From contig JADGJA010000399.1 of the NCBI GenBank assembly GCA_027596035.1, positions 1 to 19,849 of the forward strand: a DNA stretch of 19,849 bases, read 5' to 3'. The notes under the pieces were generated by a model. The model was given only the letters and a program-made list of their open reading frames with translations. It made no database searches and was not told the origin of the DNA. Position 1 is the stretch's first letter; every line of letters begins with the position of its first letter. The stretch comes from Thoreauomyces humboldtii (Eukaryota > Chytridiomycota > Chytridiomycetes > Spizellomycetales > Powellomycetaceae). Below, piece after piece: positions 13,525-19,848 of the stretch. The position numbers and the translations under genes are program-made.

Positions 13525-13944
13525 CCGACCACTGCCACCGCTCCCTCCGTCGTGGAACCATTCCGGATTAAGATGTTCCCTAAACCGGACGGGGCATGGG
13601 AAGGATCTTGATGCGGCATGACTGCTGGCGACCTCTCCACCTGCGGAACAATTCTCCGAATTAATATGAGAACGAGGGTCTCGCGGACGATGAATCGGTC
13701 TCTCGCACCCTATTTCTTGGTCAGCCAAGCTCTTTCATATAGAAGGGACATGAGCCGCCCACACGACCCGCCACCTTCAAACATGCCTACATGTATGTTT
13801 GCTTCGGTCGTTAGTCTTGTGTCAGGGTGACCGTAGTGCACATGTTACAGACGAATCAGCAGCAAGTTTACAGTTTGGCGCTGACGTGAGCTGCGAAGCC
13901 CCGCTTTTCGGCAGAGGTGTGCGCCGATCCCTGTAGACTTTTTA

Positions 13945-13972
13945 AGGTACATGTACATCACAGTACATGTAA
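13945..13972. promoter_or_regulatory. Palindromic GTACATGTAC motif cluster
   Basis: AGGTACATGTACA, then CAGTACATGTAA 3 bp later, lie about 110 bp before the ATG at 14065. The same 13-mer occurs at 5179-5191 upstream of the LPMO-like gene. It is a candidate transcription-factor site; the factor is unknown. Confidence 0.4.
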
Positions 13973-14064
13973 AGAGAGCGCACTTTCTGCATTCTTTCAA
14001 GTCTCCCTTCTCCTTCTCTCGTACTCTCAACAGTATCTCCGTGTCGTCTGTGGGGATAGTAGAC

Positions 14065-15696
14065 ATGTCCTCGGTCGCGACCATACGTCTTCTTGACAGC
14101 GCCGGCTTGAACGTTCTGGACTCGGTCTCAGCCGACTACGAGGACAGCTTTTCGCTCGAGACTTTCCTTGATCTCGCCCACGCTCACAACGATGCTCCAC
14201 CGCCAGGCACAAAATCGTTCATCCTGGCCCGCGTGCAAACTTGGGACATCAAACAGCCTGGTCGTGTGTATTGGTCCTACTACAATGCCTACTACCTCAA
14301 CAAGATCCTGTTCCAGACGCAGGTCTACCTGGGCAAGAAACTTATCCACAGGCTCCACGTACTCAACCCCTTGAGCAATACGGATATCATCGGCGACGTG
14401 CAGTACTTTATGGTCAAGTTTCCGGTCCCACCGGTCGTGGATCCGGCGGCGACTGGAGTGGGGAGAAAGGATGCCGATGATCAACCCGCCATCCTCGCGA
14501 CCGCGATCGCGGATGACACGCCGAACGCCGGGGCTGGCGGCGGCGGGAACGGAGAAACCAGAGGGATCGAGGCAGGATCACCTCGTCGTACCATGCTCCG
14601 TAGAAACCGGCCCGCCACCGCACCGCTGCTCAACAAATCTCGCGCACCCCCACCCTCCATCACCACCACGTCCCTGTCGGCGAGTCCGGGCGGCGGGAAC
14701 GGACGGAACCAGTACGATCTTCCCCCTCCGTCTCCGAGCGTCCGGGAGGCCGAGTCGGGAGCGGCATCCTGGACGCTCATGGGGCCCCTCGTCGGGGAGC
14801 TCACGGAGGAAGAACACACCGGACCGGGACCCCTGCGACGAAAGTTCAGTCTGGCGACCCTACGGACTCGCGCCCCGTTCCAGCTCGCACCTGCGCCGAA
14901 GAGCGCTTATCCGGCCTACAGGGACGACGCCGTCGGTCAAGCGAGCGAGTTCGTCCTGAACATCCCGGCGTCGCCCACCAAGACGGGATCTGGCGGAGAC
15001 CTGATCCCGGACCTGCGCGTCGTCACCCGTCCACCGCGAGGCACCCTGATGCTCAACAGTCGGGATCGACCTCACCGAGTCGACATCCCTGCCGGAACGG
15101 TGACTCGGTTCGCGCGACCGGTGGACGTGGCGGAGGAGGCCGGTCGACATCGTACACCAGAGACGAGACGTCGATCCATGTCCTTGCAGAACCACGTCTC
15201 GGGCGGGGGACGGATCGGGATCGACGCCGTGACCGACTGGAGCAACGCCCTGCGAGTCGAGTCCCTCGCGTCCGATGCGAGGAAACAGGAGACGGTCCCA
15301 CTCCTCACCTCTTCCTACTCCGCCGCCACCCTCCTCCCAGCTCCCGTCGTCGAGGCAGCCCGACCCGTCGTCCTCACGTTCGACGCGATACTGTTCGCGA
15401 CCGACACGGACTACCTCGAGACGTCCCGGATCCGATCCGTTTTCAGGGCCAACGCCGTCACGCCCGACGACGTCAAGCTGTTCGAGATGCAGGAGTTCAC
15501 GGGGATCGACTCTCCTCTCCCCTTCACCATCGTCGACGACTCGCCTGTCTGCGAGTGGTGCTTTCCCAGCCCGGACTCCATGATGGACATGTCTCCCACG
15601 AGAAGGTTCTTCCACAGGAGCAAGTTCTGGGCTTGCATCCTCGCCTTTGCTGTGGTGCTCATCGTTTTGGTATGGCGATATGCCATGCAGTATTGA
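14065..15696 (+). CDS. Tail-anchored membrane protein of unknown function (543 aa)
   Basis: This is a single-exon gene. I chose ATG 14065 because an upstream in-frame ATG (13951) lies inside a palindromic promoter motif and would add a leader-like segment. A compact N-terminal domain (about 5-116) contains QPGRVYWSYYNAYYLNKILF and the stretch IHRLHVLNPLSNTDI. A long low-complexity Pro/Gly/Arg/Ser region (120-430) follows. A second compact block (435-480) carries FDAILFATDTDYLE and FRANAVTPDDVKLFEMQEF. The C-terminus is a single membrane helix (about 522-539, FWACILAFAVVLIVLVW) after basic residues (RRFFHRSK). This layout suits a tail-anchored protein of the ER or outer mitochondrial membrane, facing the cytosol. 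No signal peptide is seen. I cannot name the family. The two compact blocks resemble each other and may be diverged copies of one fold. Confidence 0.72.
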   Translation: MSSVATIRLLDSAGLNVLDSVSADYEDSFSLETFLDLAHAHNDAPPPGTKSFILARVQTWDIKQPGRVYWSYYNAYYLNKILFQTQVYLGKKLIHRLHVLNPLSNTDIIGDVQYFMVKFPVPPVVDPAATGVGRKDADDQPAILATAIADDTPNAGAGGGGNGETRGIEAGSPRRTMLRRNRPATAPLLNKSRAPPPSITTTSLSASPGGGNGRNQYDLPPPSPSVREAESGAASWTLMGPLVGELTEEEHTGPGPLRRKFSLATLRTRAPFQLAPAPKSAYPAYRDDAVGQASEFVLNIPASPTKTGSGGDLIPDLRVVTRPPRGTLMLNSRDRPHRVDIPAGTVTRFARPVDVAEEAGRHRTPETRRRSMSLQNHVSGGGRIGIDAVTDWSNALRVESLASDARKQETVPLLTSSYSAATLLPAPVVEAARPVVLTFDAILFATDTDYLETSRIRSVFRANAVTPDDVKLFEMQEFTGIDSPLPFTIVDDSPVCEWCFPSPDSMMDMSPTRRFFHRSKFWACILAFAVVLIVLVWRYAMQY

Positions 15697-15872: not shown

Positions 15873-17526
15873 CTAAGTCTGTGCTACGACAGGCGCCCCC
15901 TTCTTGACCAAGTAACCGAGAAGGTCGACCTTCGTCACGACGTGCTTGACGATGTGGTTGTTGGGTGCCGTCTCGGTGACGACCGCGGACGAGTTGTTTT
16001 CAAAGAACTTGGACAGCGAGTCGAGCGGCGTGTCGGTGTTGATCTCGGTGAACTTCTTCTTTTGCGCAAAGTGGAACATGGCCGAGCCGACGGGCTTGTC
16101 CAGCGACGTTTGTCCAGAGTGGATCTTGCTGAGCAGGTGGCCGAGGGTGAGGAGACCGATGAGGTGGGGTGCGGCGTCGGCAGTGACGACAGGGAGCTGG
16201 TCGAAACCGCGGGACTGCATGACCGCGACGGCGTCACGGCAGGTAGTCGACTCGGGGACCGTGACGGCCTCGGGCAGCTGCAGGTCCTTGATGCGGGCGC
16301 CTCCCCACTGGGAGACACGAGCCTCCTCCTTCTTGACGGTCTCGGAGTCGATGTAGCCGTGGGCCTTCATCCAATCGTCGTTGAGGTGTTTGGTCATGTA
16401 GTTACGGATGGAATCGGCGAGCAGGACAACGCAACGCTGTCCCTTCTTGAGGGTGCGAGCAGCCTTCAACGCTCCGACGACGGCGGCTCCCGAGGATCCG
16501 CCGCACAGGAGACCTTCCTCGCGGATGAGGCGACGCGCCATGAGGAACGACTCCTTGTCGTCCGTCTTGATCCACTCGTCGACGTGCGACCGGTCGAGGA
16601 CCTCGGGGATGAAGTCGTATCCGATTCCCTCGACCTGGTAGCCGTGCACACCTTCCTTGTTCAGAGCCTCGGGCTGGGCGAGGATGGAGCCGTTGGGGTC
16701 GATTCCGACCACGCGGCATCCCGGGAAGCGCTCCTTGAGCTTCTTTGCGATACCGGCGATGGTTCCGCCGGTTCCGGCGCTCGCCACGAACATGTCGATG
16801 TGGCCGTCGCACTGAGCGATGATCTCCTCTGCGGTTCCCTCGTAATGCGCCATGGGGTTGTTGACGTTGGAGTACTGGTCAGGGATCAAGGAGTCCTTGA
16901 TCTCCTTGTTCAGACGACGTGCGACGCCGATATGGGAGTCTGGCGCGTCCCATGCCGCTTCCGTCGGTGTGCGGATGATCTCCGCACCGAGTGCCTTGAG
17001 GACGTCGACCTTCTCCTGCGACATCTTCTCGGGAAGCGTGATGATCGCGCGGTAACCCTTCACAGCTGCGGCGAGGGCGAGTCCGATTCCGGTGTTTCCG
17101 GAAGTGGGCTCGATGAGAGTGAATCCGGGCTGAAGCAAAGGGACAAAGCGGTGAGCTGACGACTCCAACTTCGAAAAGGATTTGTGGTTCTGAGCGAGAC
17201 TCCACCGACCTTGAGCAGACCATCCCTCTCCGCTCCTTCCACCATGCGCTTTGCGATTCTGTCCTTGACGGAGCCTCCCGCATTGAAGAACTCACATTTG
17301 GCGACTGCAGGCAGGTGACCGGGGGTCAGCATGGAGCCTCAAAGAGAAACAGACGCACACAAGTGCAAAGAGCGCAAGCGCAACCAGCCTTACCGATCTC
17401 GCACTCGATCCCAGCGTCGAGGACGACACGGTTGAGCCTGACGCAGGGTGTTCCTCCGATGTGCTCGAGGATGTTGTCGAGGATGCGCTTCCTGTCAAAG
17501 GGGTCCGTCACGGTTCCGGTGGTCAT
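15873..17526 (-). CDS. CYS4: Cystathionine beta-synthase (494 aa, 3 exons)
   Basis: This PLP enzyme joins serine and homocysteine to form cystathionine, the first step of transsulfuration, in the cytosol. Exons on the minus strand: 17526-17394, 17304-17210, 17129-15873; introns of 89 and 80 nt with consistent phases. The catalytic core shows [10 protein letters not shown], the PLP lysine Lys58 in AGGSVKDR, the SGNTG loop (86-90), SAGTGGT for the phosphate and GGSSG. A Bateman pair of CBS domains follows (about 365-490), ending near the C-terminus. There is no N-terminal heme-binding region, as in yeast Cys4 and unlike human CBS. The length matches the yeast enzyme (507 aa). The sense strand just upstream of the ATG is strongly CT-rich (about 17640-17705), a common fungal promoter/leader feature. 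Confidence 0.97.
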
Positions 17527-17833
17527 GGTTGCGAAGAGTCTAAAAGGAAGGTTGAGCAGAGAGGGTCGGCGGCAGCAACAGGGAGCAGCAGGTCGAGGAT
17601 TCGAGAAGAGGTGTGAAGTGGTGGTGGTGTACTATATCGGCGAAGAGAGAGAGAGAGGGGGAAGAGAGGGGAAAAAGGAAAAAAACAGAACAAGAAAGAG
17701 AGCCAGCAGCACCCCTCATGACATGGCGCTACAACACCCCAACCACCGCACACGGCGCGCATCCCCGGGTTGCGCCACTTCCAGTACATTTGAGATACCG
17801 AAGTAAACCAAAGTAAGTGTAGAGTAGCGCTAA
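17527..17833. other. Gap between Fanzor stop and CBS start; candidate guide-RNA/element-end region
   Basis: This 307-bp stretch holds the 3' flank of the Fanzor gene and the CBS promoter, both read on the minus strand. Near the Fanzor stop there is a short palindrome TAGCGCTA (17826-17833). A possible GC hairpin follows, with arms GGCGC (17754-17758) and GCGCC (17772-17776). Nearer CBS is a purine/pyrimidine tract (17640-17700). In known Fanzor systems the guide RNA comes from non-coding sequence beside the nuclease gene and often overlaps its 3' end, so this is where to look. I cannot define its ends. Confidence 0.35.
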
Positions 17834-19848
17834 CTACCCCGGAGGTATTCTGCCTCTGCCTCTACCCCGTCCTCTGTTTCGGCCCCGTCCTCTGCCTCTC
17901 CCAGCGTTTCCAGCCCTCCGCCTTGCTGGAGGTGCCCGTTGTCCCCTCCGGAAAGCTTCAGGTCTTCCGTACCCTTGCAGATGAGACTGGACGATGGTTC
18001 GCATGTTGCGGACGCTCAGGGTGTCGCGGTTGAAGTAGCAGATTCGAGGGCCTTGGTAGTTGACGCCGAAGGTTTGTTGTACACAATTCGGGTGGTCGCA
18101 CCCCAACAAACCGTGGACGTCATCCAACTGTCCTGTACTTGCCCTCCATGGCCGTGGGCTGGGTCGCTTCGGGACCACTTTCTTCCTGACCTTGTGATAG
18201 GTCATGCTGCCGTCTGCGAGTTGCTCTCCGATCGGGCAGATGGAGGACGTGAGGTACTCGTCGATGAGGAACCTAGACATTGATTCCGGAAACAGGATCA
18301 GCCAGGACGTAGGTGCATCAACTCGTCTTCGTCTCTTGTGGCCTTTGCCCCCGACTCTCTCTCTTCCAATCCGTCGCCCTTCTTCGCCAACCATCCTTCG
18401 CCAGCCATCCTTCGTAACTCTGTTGTCGTCTCTCTGTCTTTGCAAGCTTTCCTTTCCCCATCATCATCGGTCATCGTCACCGTCATTCGCCGTGGCCATC
18501 CTCCGCCCGCCCCTGTCCTTTGCTGTCGCAAGTCGGCACCCCCGTCATTTGCGACTAGCCCCTCATTTGCAGCGCTCCCGCCATTTGCTGCTCCCCCGTC
18601 CATCCCGTCGCCGTGTCCATCCTTTGCGACTCCCCGTCCGTTTCCTTCGCCGTGGCCATCCTCTGGCGCCCCCGTTCTGGGCTTTCGTCGTCGCCGTCGC
18701 TGTCCTTTACCATAACCCGACCTTCCGTTTGCCATCGCCGTCCTTTGTCGTTACCTTCGCCGTCATCGTCACCTTGTCCGTCGCTGTCACTATCCTTCAC
18801 CGTCACCGTCATTCGCCTTTGTCGCCGCAGGCACCGTCTTCGGGCAGTCTCCGTCTCCCTCTTTCTCACCGCCTCGTCCTTCGCTCTCCTTCGCCGGCAC
18901 CGACACCGTTCCGATTCCGAGACCTTCACCGTCACCGACGCCGTTCCAATTCCGGTACCTTGGCCGTCACCGTCACCGTCCTGCCTATGATGAGACTCAC
19001 CATGGGATTTTTGCCGCCGTAAACGTCTTGCGCCAACCCGATGTCTTTGACGATGTCTGGAATTTTGTAGTGTGTCCACCGTCGCTCCAGTCTCCCAGCA
19101 CGATTGTGAAGGTCCCGAACTTGGCTTTCATGGCGTTAATGAGTTTGGCCTCCGATTTTTGCTTCAAAGAGTACGCCTTCAGACGCTCCTTTGCATGTGC
19201 GTTATCTCTGGCGTAGAACTCGGTGAGGCGGGGGCCGTGTCGAACCTGGAAACGGATGTAAGCCTCGAACGCTCTGTGCTCCATTGTCTTTGAAGGGGGA
19301 GTGACTAGATCGTTCAGTTCTTGTGCTCTCCCCTCTCGAGCCTGTGGAGTAATTTGCGTCAGCTGTCGGCGGGTATCCTCAGTCTGAATAAGCGCCGGTG
19401 TCCCAATTGCAGTTCGCCTCTGCGCCATCTTCCCGCTGCGCCGAGGCCGACTCCTCTGCACCGAGGCCGATTCCGCTGCCCGGAGGCCCCATCCTCCCCT
19501 GCGCCGACACCATCCTCCCGCTGCCCCGAGGCCGATTTCCGCAGGCTCCCGTTGCCCCGATTCCCGGCAGAGGACGGTGAGGCTCCCGTTGCCCCGAGGC
19601 CGATTCCGTTGCGCCAAGGCCCCATCATCGCCTGCGCCGACACCATCCTCCCGCTGCGCCCTCCGCCTTCGTCGCCGTAGCCTCCATCAAACCGTCTGTC
19701 ATTTGTAACGTACCTTTGCGAACACCCGTCTCTTGGTCTCCTTGTCTCTCTGCATGGAGGTATATCGAAGCATCTGTCCACTCGAGTCCATGCAGTACAG
19801 TAGATCTCGCTTGTTGGGATCGATGTAGACGATGTTGGCGTCCGGGTC
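17834..19848 (-). CDS. Fanzor RNA-guided nuclease (eukaryotic TnpB homologue), C-terminal part, 5' end off window
   Basis: Fanzors are eukaryotic relatives of TnpB and Cas12 that cut DNA guided by an RNA encoded beside them; one from the chytrid Spizellomyces has been shown to do so. Exons on the minus strand: from the window edge (first full codon 19848) to 19714, 19383-19001, 18272-17834, with consistent phases, giving 318 visible residues. RuvC-I is VYIDPNKRDLLYC (Asp10), followed by LRYTSMQRDKETKRR. Exon 2 includes FEAYIRF and IVLGDWSD. RuvC-II is WFLIDEYLTSS (Glu178), created exactly by the exon 2/3 join. The zinc-finger region has CPIG, PSPRPWR, HGLLGCDHPNC, and RuvC-III is CYFNRD (Asp256). 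All three acidic residues are present; one zinc Cys is Gly. The tail (from about 280) is RG-rich. Introns are 330 and 728 nt and repeat-filled. The N-terminal recognition half lies outside the window. Confidence 0.9.
18273..19000 (-). repeat. Repeat-filled 728-nt intron of the Fanzor gene
   Basis: The donor is GTGAGT (19000-18995) and the acceptor TCTAG (ending 18273). The intron is a degenerate minisatellite rich in CACCGTC, CATCC and TTCGCCGT units (plus-strand reading). Clear copies include a 35-bp tandem pair (18902-18936 and 18937-18971, about 6 differences) and the 16-mer GTCACCGTCATTCGCC at 18476-18491 and 18802-18817. The frames open through it have only repeat-like composition, so I read it as intron rather than coding insert. 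Confidence 0.65.
19384..19713 (-). repeat. Repeat-filled 330-nt intron of the Fanzor gene
   Basis: The donor is GTACGT (19713-19708) and the acceptor ATTCAG (ending 19384). The GC-rich interior repeats CCGAGGCCGATTCC units. A 64-bp block at 19461-19524 recurs at 19594-19657 with about 6 differences, including an exact 27-bp core (19498-19524 and 19631-19657). This gives a period of about 133 bp. Minus-strand frames through it read as Arg/Gly/Ala-rich repeats that match no Fanzor segment. Confidence 0.65.

Follow-up and report, generated by a model that had tools for sequence, protein, structure and literature searches.

Homology identifies a Fanzor1 variant half in Thoreauomyces humboldtii whose mobile family spreads from its right end

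The closest characterised relative of the gene described here is SpuFz1 of Spizellomyces punctatus, whose host belongs to the same fungal order, Spizellomycetales. Fanzors occur in eukaryotes and are related to CRISPR nucleases. SpuFz1 has solved structures (PDB 8GKH and 9CEU-9CEZ) and measured RNA-guided cleavage, its residues D383, N385, E541 and D606 bind two magnesium ions, and a CCCC zinc finger is common to SpuFz1 and TnpB (PMC10432273). An earlier note on this DNA had presented the gene as part of a little-studied system, a description that does not fit so well characterised a relative. SPu-1, the element in which SpuFz1 sits, contains one open reading frame and carries inverted repeats of 30-33 bp, with putative duplications of TA (PMC3627910, PMC10432273). 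In Bao and Jurka (2013), Fanzor1 proteins share the motif D-X(125,275)-[TS][TS]-X-X-[C4 zinc finger]-X(5,50)-RD, and the zinc-finger cysteines are called strictly conserved (PMC3627910). The same authors assign CRe-1, CRe-2 and CRe-3 of Chlamydomonas reinhardtii, which encode multi-exon Fanzor1 proteins, to Helitron2; these elements leave 5'-truncated copies whose 3' ends are nearly always intact, show duplications of ~7-19 bp mostly at truncated copies, insert after TTTT-like tetranucleotides and share their ends with verified Helitrons (PMC3627910). The second-best solved relative, PpFz1 of Parasitella parasitica (PDB 9CF0), is more distant and keeps all four cysteines, as CPKC and C-K-N-M-S-C.

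The window, that is, the whole stretch of DNA analysed, is the entire 19849 bp contig C333 of the T. humboldtii assembly G000 (20.67 Mb, 823 contigs). On its reverse strand, from 19848 to 17834, three exons are joined in frame over two GT-AG introns into 304 residues with zero stops and zero frameshifts, closed by a TAG stop (Table 1). The start codon is missing from the window because the contig ends. The earlier note had rebuilt a C-terminal Fanzor half from three exons by phase and splice signals, and its reconstruction stands: the joins are in frame, the exons are uninterrupted, and IDPNKRDLLYC, GDWS, IDEYLTSS, HGLLGC and FNRD all read as it gave them. The exon 2/3 join, which it had placed inside the RuvC-II motif, falls just before IDEYLTSS.

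Table 1. Positions of the Fanzor1 gene and element features in the window
Feature	Position	Strand	Description
Exon 1 (truncated 5' where the contig ends)	19714..19848	-	RuvC-I, IDPNKRDLLYC
Asp codon in exon 1	19819-19821	-	SpuFz1 D383
Asn codon in exon 1	19813-19815	-	SpuFz1 N385
Intron 1	19342..19713	-	372 nt, GT-AG (GTACGT...ACAG), G-rich, 20-21 bp tandem units
Exon 2	19001..19341	-	Mid RuvC domain, with GDWSDGGHTTKFQTSSKTSGWRKTF
Intron 2	18273..19000	-	728 nt, GT-AG (GTGAGT...CTAG), 35-39 bp tandem units
Exon 3	17834..18272	-	RuvC-II Glu, altered zinc finger, RuvC-III Asp, RG-rich tail, TAG stop
Glu codon in exon 3	18257-18259	-	SpuFz1 E541
Asp codon in exon 3	18023-18025	-	SpuFz1 D606
Zinc-finger region in exon 3, CPIG	18227-18238	-	
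Zinc-finger region in exon 3, C-D-H-P-N-C	18083-18100	-	
RG-rich C-terminal tail	17837..17941	-	35 residues; not in SpuFz1 or paralogue P0001
Right end of element	17785..17856	-	Core CTCCGGGGTAGTTAGCGCTAC, CACTTACTTTGG, CAAATGTA; overlaps stop codon; sharp terminus 17785; candidate omega-RNA scaffold
First 16 nt beyond element	17769..17784	-	Guide position by analogy with SpuFz1 (PMC10432273), should an omega-RNA arise from the right end

The splice joins are supported by the borders in other copies, by a deposited protein and by the SpuFz1 alignment. Intron 2 has its GT...AG at identical borders in five other genomic copies, where it measures just 80 nt in L030 and 561, 163, 116 and 546 nt in L032, L033, L035 and L043. 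Among 21 sequences searched, all six copies in which both border marks were found, the window included, retain this intron, and a directly joined exon 2/3, with a zero gap permitted, occurs in none; L031 also covers the site and stands outside the count of six, its exon-2 end mark being too diverged for detection. The deposited T. humboldtii protein P0001 (HKX48_006969), 81% identical to the window protein over 88% of the query, has identical joins (VFAK/RE and KIPW/FLIDEY, with the slash at the join), and the phmmer alignment with SpuFz1 continues across both. A frameshift after GDWS, where another frame reads HYKIPDIVKDIGLAQDVYGG, was rejected, as both the alignment with SpuFz1 and the deposited protein P0001 keep the original frame. 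Both window introns are long and 41% G on the sense strand, with imperfect tandem units of 20-39 bp.

Two neighbouring genes are found in the window. A cystathionine beta-synthase gene (15873-17526, reverse strand; TIGR01137, E 2.1e-172) lies on the same strand as the Fanzor element, and its likely start codon is ~260 bp downstream of the end of that element; given this orientation and spacing, read-through would enter the promoter region of this gene. On the forward strand, a 603-residue frame (13885-15696) carries DUF5092 (PF17010, E 1.5e-18).

Homology shows that the window gene encodes the C-terminal half of a Fanzor1 and is carried by a mobile element. In phmmer, the joined 304 residues match SpuFz1 (8GKH, chain 8gkh_P) at E 2.8e-64 over residues 4-269, the separate, unjoined frames reach E = 1.1e-17 and 4.4e-23, and the joined protein matches PpFz1 at E 5.2e-16. 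A Pfam scan gave no match, PF07282 included, for either the window Fanzor pieces or the joined residues, and the proteins P0002 and P0003 carry a precomputed PF26935 label, yet show no such match on the Pfam scan here. The RuvC triad, called intact in the earlier note, is so in the alignment: window D10, N12, E164 and D242 align with SpuFz1 D383, N385, E541 and D606, and all four metal-binding residues are identical. SpuFz1 numbering was obtained through a 394-residue offset in 8gkh_P, which places all four named residues on the right letters. Sequence related to the N-terminal half, which the earlier note looked for beyond the contig end, is present elsewhere in the genome and is in part rearranged. 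None of the results named in that note as refuting an intact Fanzor turned up. Paralogue pieces N-terminal to RuvC-I match SpuFz1 in L031 (E 3.3e-14) and L046 (E 6.6e-5), and a VNVQEH-type stretch is inverted in L031 (E 5.3e-4 with P0014). A short repeat at residues ~118-158 of the N-terminal-side sequence in L046 (G000:C547:1355-1897, reverse strand) recurs on C198, C277, C526, C117, C16, C701 and C260.

The same genome also holds five Fanzor2/IS607-type places, L001-L005 (on G000 contigs C128, C800, C21, C107 and C52), which are likewise homologues of TnpB-derived RNA-guided nucleases. All five match PF07282, whereas the window Fanzor1 does not, and they form a separate lineage. The frame on C800 runs for 839 residues with no stop. 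Relatives of these five occur in Geranomyces and Borealophlyctis; one match carries the resolvase domain PF00239, and one carries domains of MerR type.

The window protein is a Fanzor1 by descent and is not categorically new; by the strict published motif it is a variant rather than a canonical member because its zinc finger departs from the C4 of Bao and Jurka. The D, TSS and RD of that motif are all present, and the finger is C3, with CPIG in place of CxxC and a histidine gained in CDHPNC. Compared with SpuFz1, the window protein has CPIG rather than CPRC, an inserted stretch after CPIG and the RG-rich tail, which comes after the last conserved helix and is absent from P0001, a member of a second right-end set described below. 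CPIG is found in 9/9 family copies spanning the first knuckle, and the second knuckle is C[DN]H in 12/12 copies spanning that stretch. Among 24 relatives from other organisms, the first knuckle is readable in 20 and reads CxxC in 18 and CQCG in two (P0015 and P0016), so departures from CxxC occur outside the window family as well. A histidine at the window's second-knuckle place is seen in none of the 18 other-organism relatives with a readable knuckle; P0006 has a histidine one residue later. From the residues at these positions, the histidine may serve as a replacement zinc ligand, changing the finger from C4 to C3H.

Among copies spanning >85% of each exon segment, with stop-containing codons skipped, dN/dS has a median of 0.245 in exon 3 (range 0.13-0.60; 9 sequences, 36 pairs) and of 0.14 in exon 2 (range 0.07-0.33; 7 sequences, 21 pairs). 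These low values indicate purifying selection on the nuclease half during the spread of the family; they speak for the family and do not show that the window copy is functional.

Copies of the element are numerous. The exon-3 region has at least 40 DNA matches in the assembly, from the scoring of 40 of 44 candidates, and the exon 1-2 region has 22. Two N-terminal-side DNA queries have 8 and 12, and several of these 12 are confined to a repeat within the query. Exon-3 coverage climbs unevenly from 5' to 3', from 9 to 28 of the 40 matches, or from 9 to 18 of 29 once nine contig-edge and two unjudged matches are left out; part of the 3' excess arises because contig breaks cut matches. The assembly contigs seen were all >10 kb, and P0002 and P0025 sit on shorter ones (7413 bp and 5332 bp), so the assembly searched probably omits short contigs and hence misses copies. 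No full-length, uninterrupted copy was found among the loci read, and stops interrupt several paralogues, such as L031 and L040. The Fanzor1 identification in the earlier note was right, while this mobile family with its truncated copies, and the departure of the zinc finger from C4, went unnoticed in it.

What family copies have in common is a sharp terminus, ...CACTTACTTTGG...CAAATGTA. Across the assembly, the tail pattern gives 55 matches at 45 distinct sites against 0 for a reversed control, and the core GTAGTTAGCGCTAC has 54 exact sites, or 71 with at most one mismatch against 6 for the control. The core lies within 90 bp of 40/45 tail sites, and core and tail sites together number 76, a few of whose one-mismatch core sites may be chance. 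A second right-end set (L041, L043, L048 and L078) shares the core and finishes in ...CACTTACCCGAT..GTGATTGGTA or close to it; L035 belongs to this set as well, with the last bases GTGATTGGTA absent. Two sub-lineages of the element coexist in the genome.

Spread of the family is anchored at the right end: insertions have a fixed 3' terminus (...CAAAT/GTA, the slash marking the border) and 5' truncation of varying extent. This is seen at 19 loci whose right end is intact and whose 5' breakpoint lies within the contig, a sample that leaves out L059 for its unclear breakpoint and L041 and L042, where no adjoining duplication was seen. A GTA-led target duplication of at least 6 bp adjoins the breakpoint at 9 of the 19, against 3/342 cross-paired 5'/3' controls, and one of at least 7 bp at 7/19 against 0/342; with L041 and L042 taken as negatives the rate is 9/21. 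The duplications are 6-15 bp long and start with GTA, a target that is partly built in because the test requires GTA. The remaining 10/19 truncated copies show no GTA-anchored duplication of at least 6 bp; L048, one of these ten, has a 14 bp duplication starting with TA, outside the nine counted. Several 5' junctions of truncated copies show microhomology, and at L055 and L060 the inserts consist of nothing but right end, ~26 and ~32 bp long without their duplications of 9 and 6 bp. In the open-licence literature, we found no report of right-end-anchored spread with GTA-led duplications for a chytrid Fanzor.

With SpuFz1 and SPu-1 the family shares the RuvC/NUC half, all the metal-binding residues and many partial genomic copies; it differs from SPu-1 in having introns, no inverted repeat that was seen and GTA-led duplications of 6-15 bp. 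CRe-1, CRe-2 and CRe-3 are the closest precedent for its insertion pattern, with truncated copies and variable duplications of similar kind (PMC3627910), but the window family has a GTA anchor, and a Helitron with the same end was not found in the assembly.

Several routes could have produced this pattern. We infer that one-ended rolling-circle (Helitron2-like) transposition ranks first among them: the judgeable copies keep their introns, which favours a DNA route. The single match to Helitron_like_N (PF14214) is weak, below the cut-off and broken by an internal stop, and its contig, C478, carries none of the 76 right-end sites. Truncation, microhomology at several 5' junctions and variable 6-15 bp duplications also fit target-primed reverse transcription, in which a LINE-type enzyme would copy, at a nick containing GTA, an RNA that terminates with the right-end hairpin; the very short inserts at L055 and L060 suit such a mechanism. 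The retention of intron 2 in all six judgeable copies tells against it, as does the lack of any LINE seen: RVT_1 occurs at four places in the assembly (C543, C804, C198 and C472), and the two read are L079 on C543, with RT and integrase-like frames, and L080 on C804, with a frame resembling protease/RT. Judged by eye, both look like Ty3 retrotransposons, and neither shows LINE machinery or the right-end motif. On balance we regard insertion through RNA as unlikely. Still less credible, and in our judgement very improbable, is a cut-and-paste element of the SPu-1 kind, with terminal inverted repeats and TA duplications, whose truncated copies would be later deletions. SpuFz1 itself sits in an element of this kind (PMC3627910, PMC10432273), and the window family's right end finishes in TA. 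None of the 45 tail sites shares its contig with a second exact tail, although the scope of this search is limited by breaks between contigs and by the absence of a left end, and a diverged left repeat would escape it; a pattern search for an inverted left end found none, and opposite-strand core pairs are seen only on C599 and C813, ~13 kb and ~84 kb apart. Moreover, the duplications abut the truncation points, which disfavours later deletion.

Whether the family still encodes a working nuclease is a separate matter. The copy could be a decayed Fanzor1 remnant, 5'-truncated and inactive, the missing zinc cysteine meaning that the family has lost nuclease function or keeps only RNA or DNA binding. 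Many copies are truncated, a complete one was not seen among the loci read, several paralogues (L031, L040) have stops, and CPIG is present in every copy that spans it. These observations are countered by dN/dS well under 1 in both exons, by the retention of all four metal-binding residues and by the histidine gained in the second knuckle of all 12 copies, as expected of a ligand that was replaced and not lost. We hold decay to be a serious contender, somewhat short of an even chance; it overlaps in part with the reading that we prefer, and the chances given here do not sum to one. That preferred reading, which we consider probable as a whole, is a Fanzor1 variant half in a mobile element, a SpuFz1-like omega-RNA-guided nuclease, with spread anchored at the right end. 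We infer its nuclease activity, its omega-RNA and its mobilising enzyme.

Homology and the conserved right end together suggest how such a protein would act. Most likely SpuFz1-like, it would bind an omega-RNA that the element encodes in its right end; the final bases of this RNA would extend into the flanking DNA as the guide, and matching DNA would be cut by the RuvC site D/N/E/D. Truncated copies that keep the right end may then be additional sources of guide RNA, comparable to the 'ghost' loci in Spizellomyces. An omega-RNA from the right end is likely but unproven. The window right end adjoins the stop codon, which is also the position of the omega-RNA in SpuFz1. The core of the right end remains conserved in copies with a reading frame that stops earlier, and in minimum-free-energy folds the last three bases are paired in a terminal stem in 18/28 distinct right ends. 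The window right end folds no better than shuffled sequences (z -0.55), RNAalifold on 28 sequences gives 7 consensus pairs with 0 compensatory changes, and Rfam at the gathering threshold has no match in the window. The guide-like 16-mer has its own site as its sole exact match in the genome and, with at most two mismatches, matches 20 places against 23 for a reversed control.

The right end could also have a dual role, serving both as the omega-RNA that guides the Fanzor and as the terminus that primes insertions at GTA. Every truncated insertion, even one of ~26 bp, would thereby create a new guide locus, whole or partial, directed at its own target, and the C3-His zinc change and RG-rich tail would be adaptations of this lineage. 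We consider this fuller version rather improbable; if it were true, the guide repertoire of the nuclease would be written by failed transposition.

The chytrid family is a testable case for how Fanzors move and for what the nuclease does for its element. It offers 76 right-end sites in one 20.7 Mb assembly, with duplications that reveal the empty site, and it has a contrast pair in SPu-1, with its inverted repeats, and the Helitron-like CRe-1, CRe-2 and CRe-3. A Fanzor1 lineage with a changed zinc cysteine under purifying selection also bears on the reach of the 'strict' TnpB/Fanzor motif for finding members.
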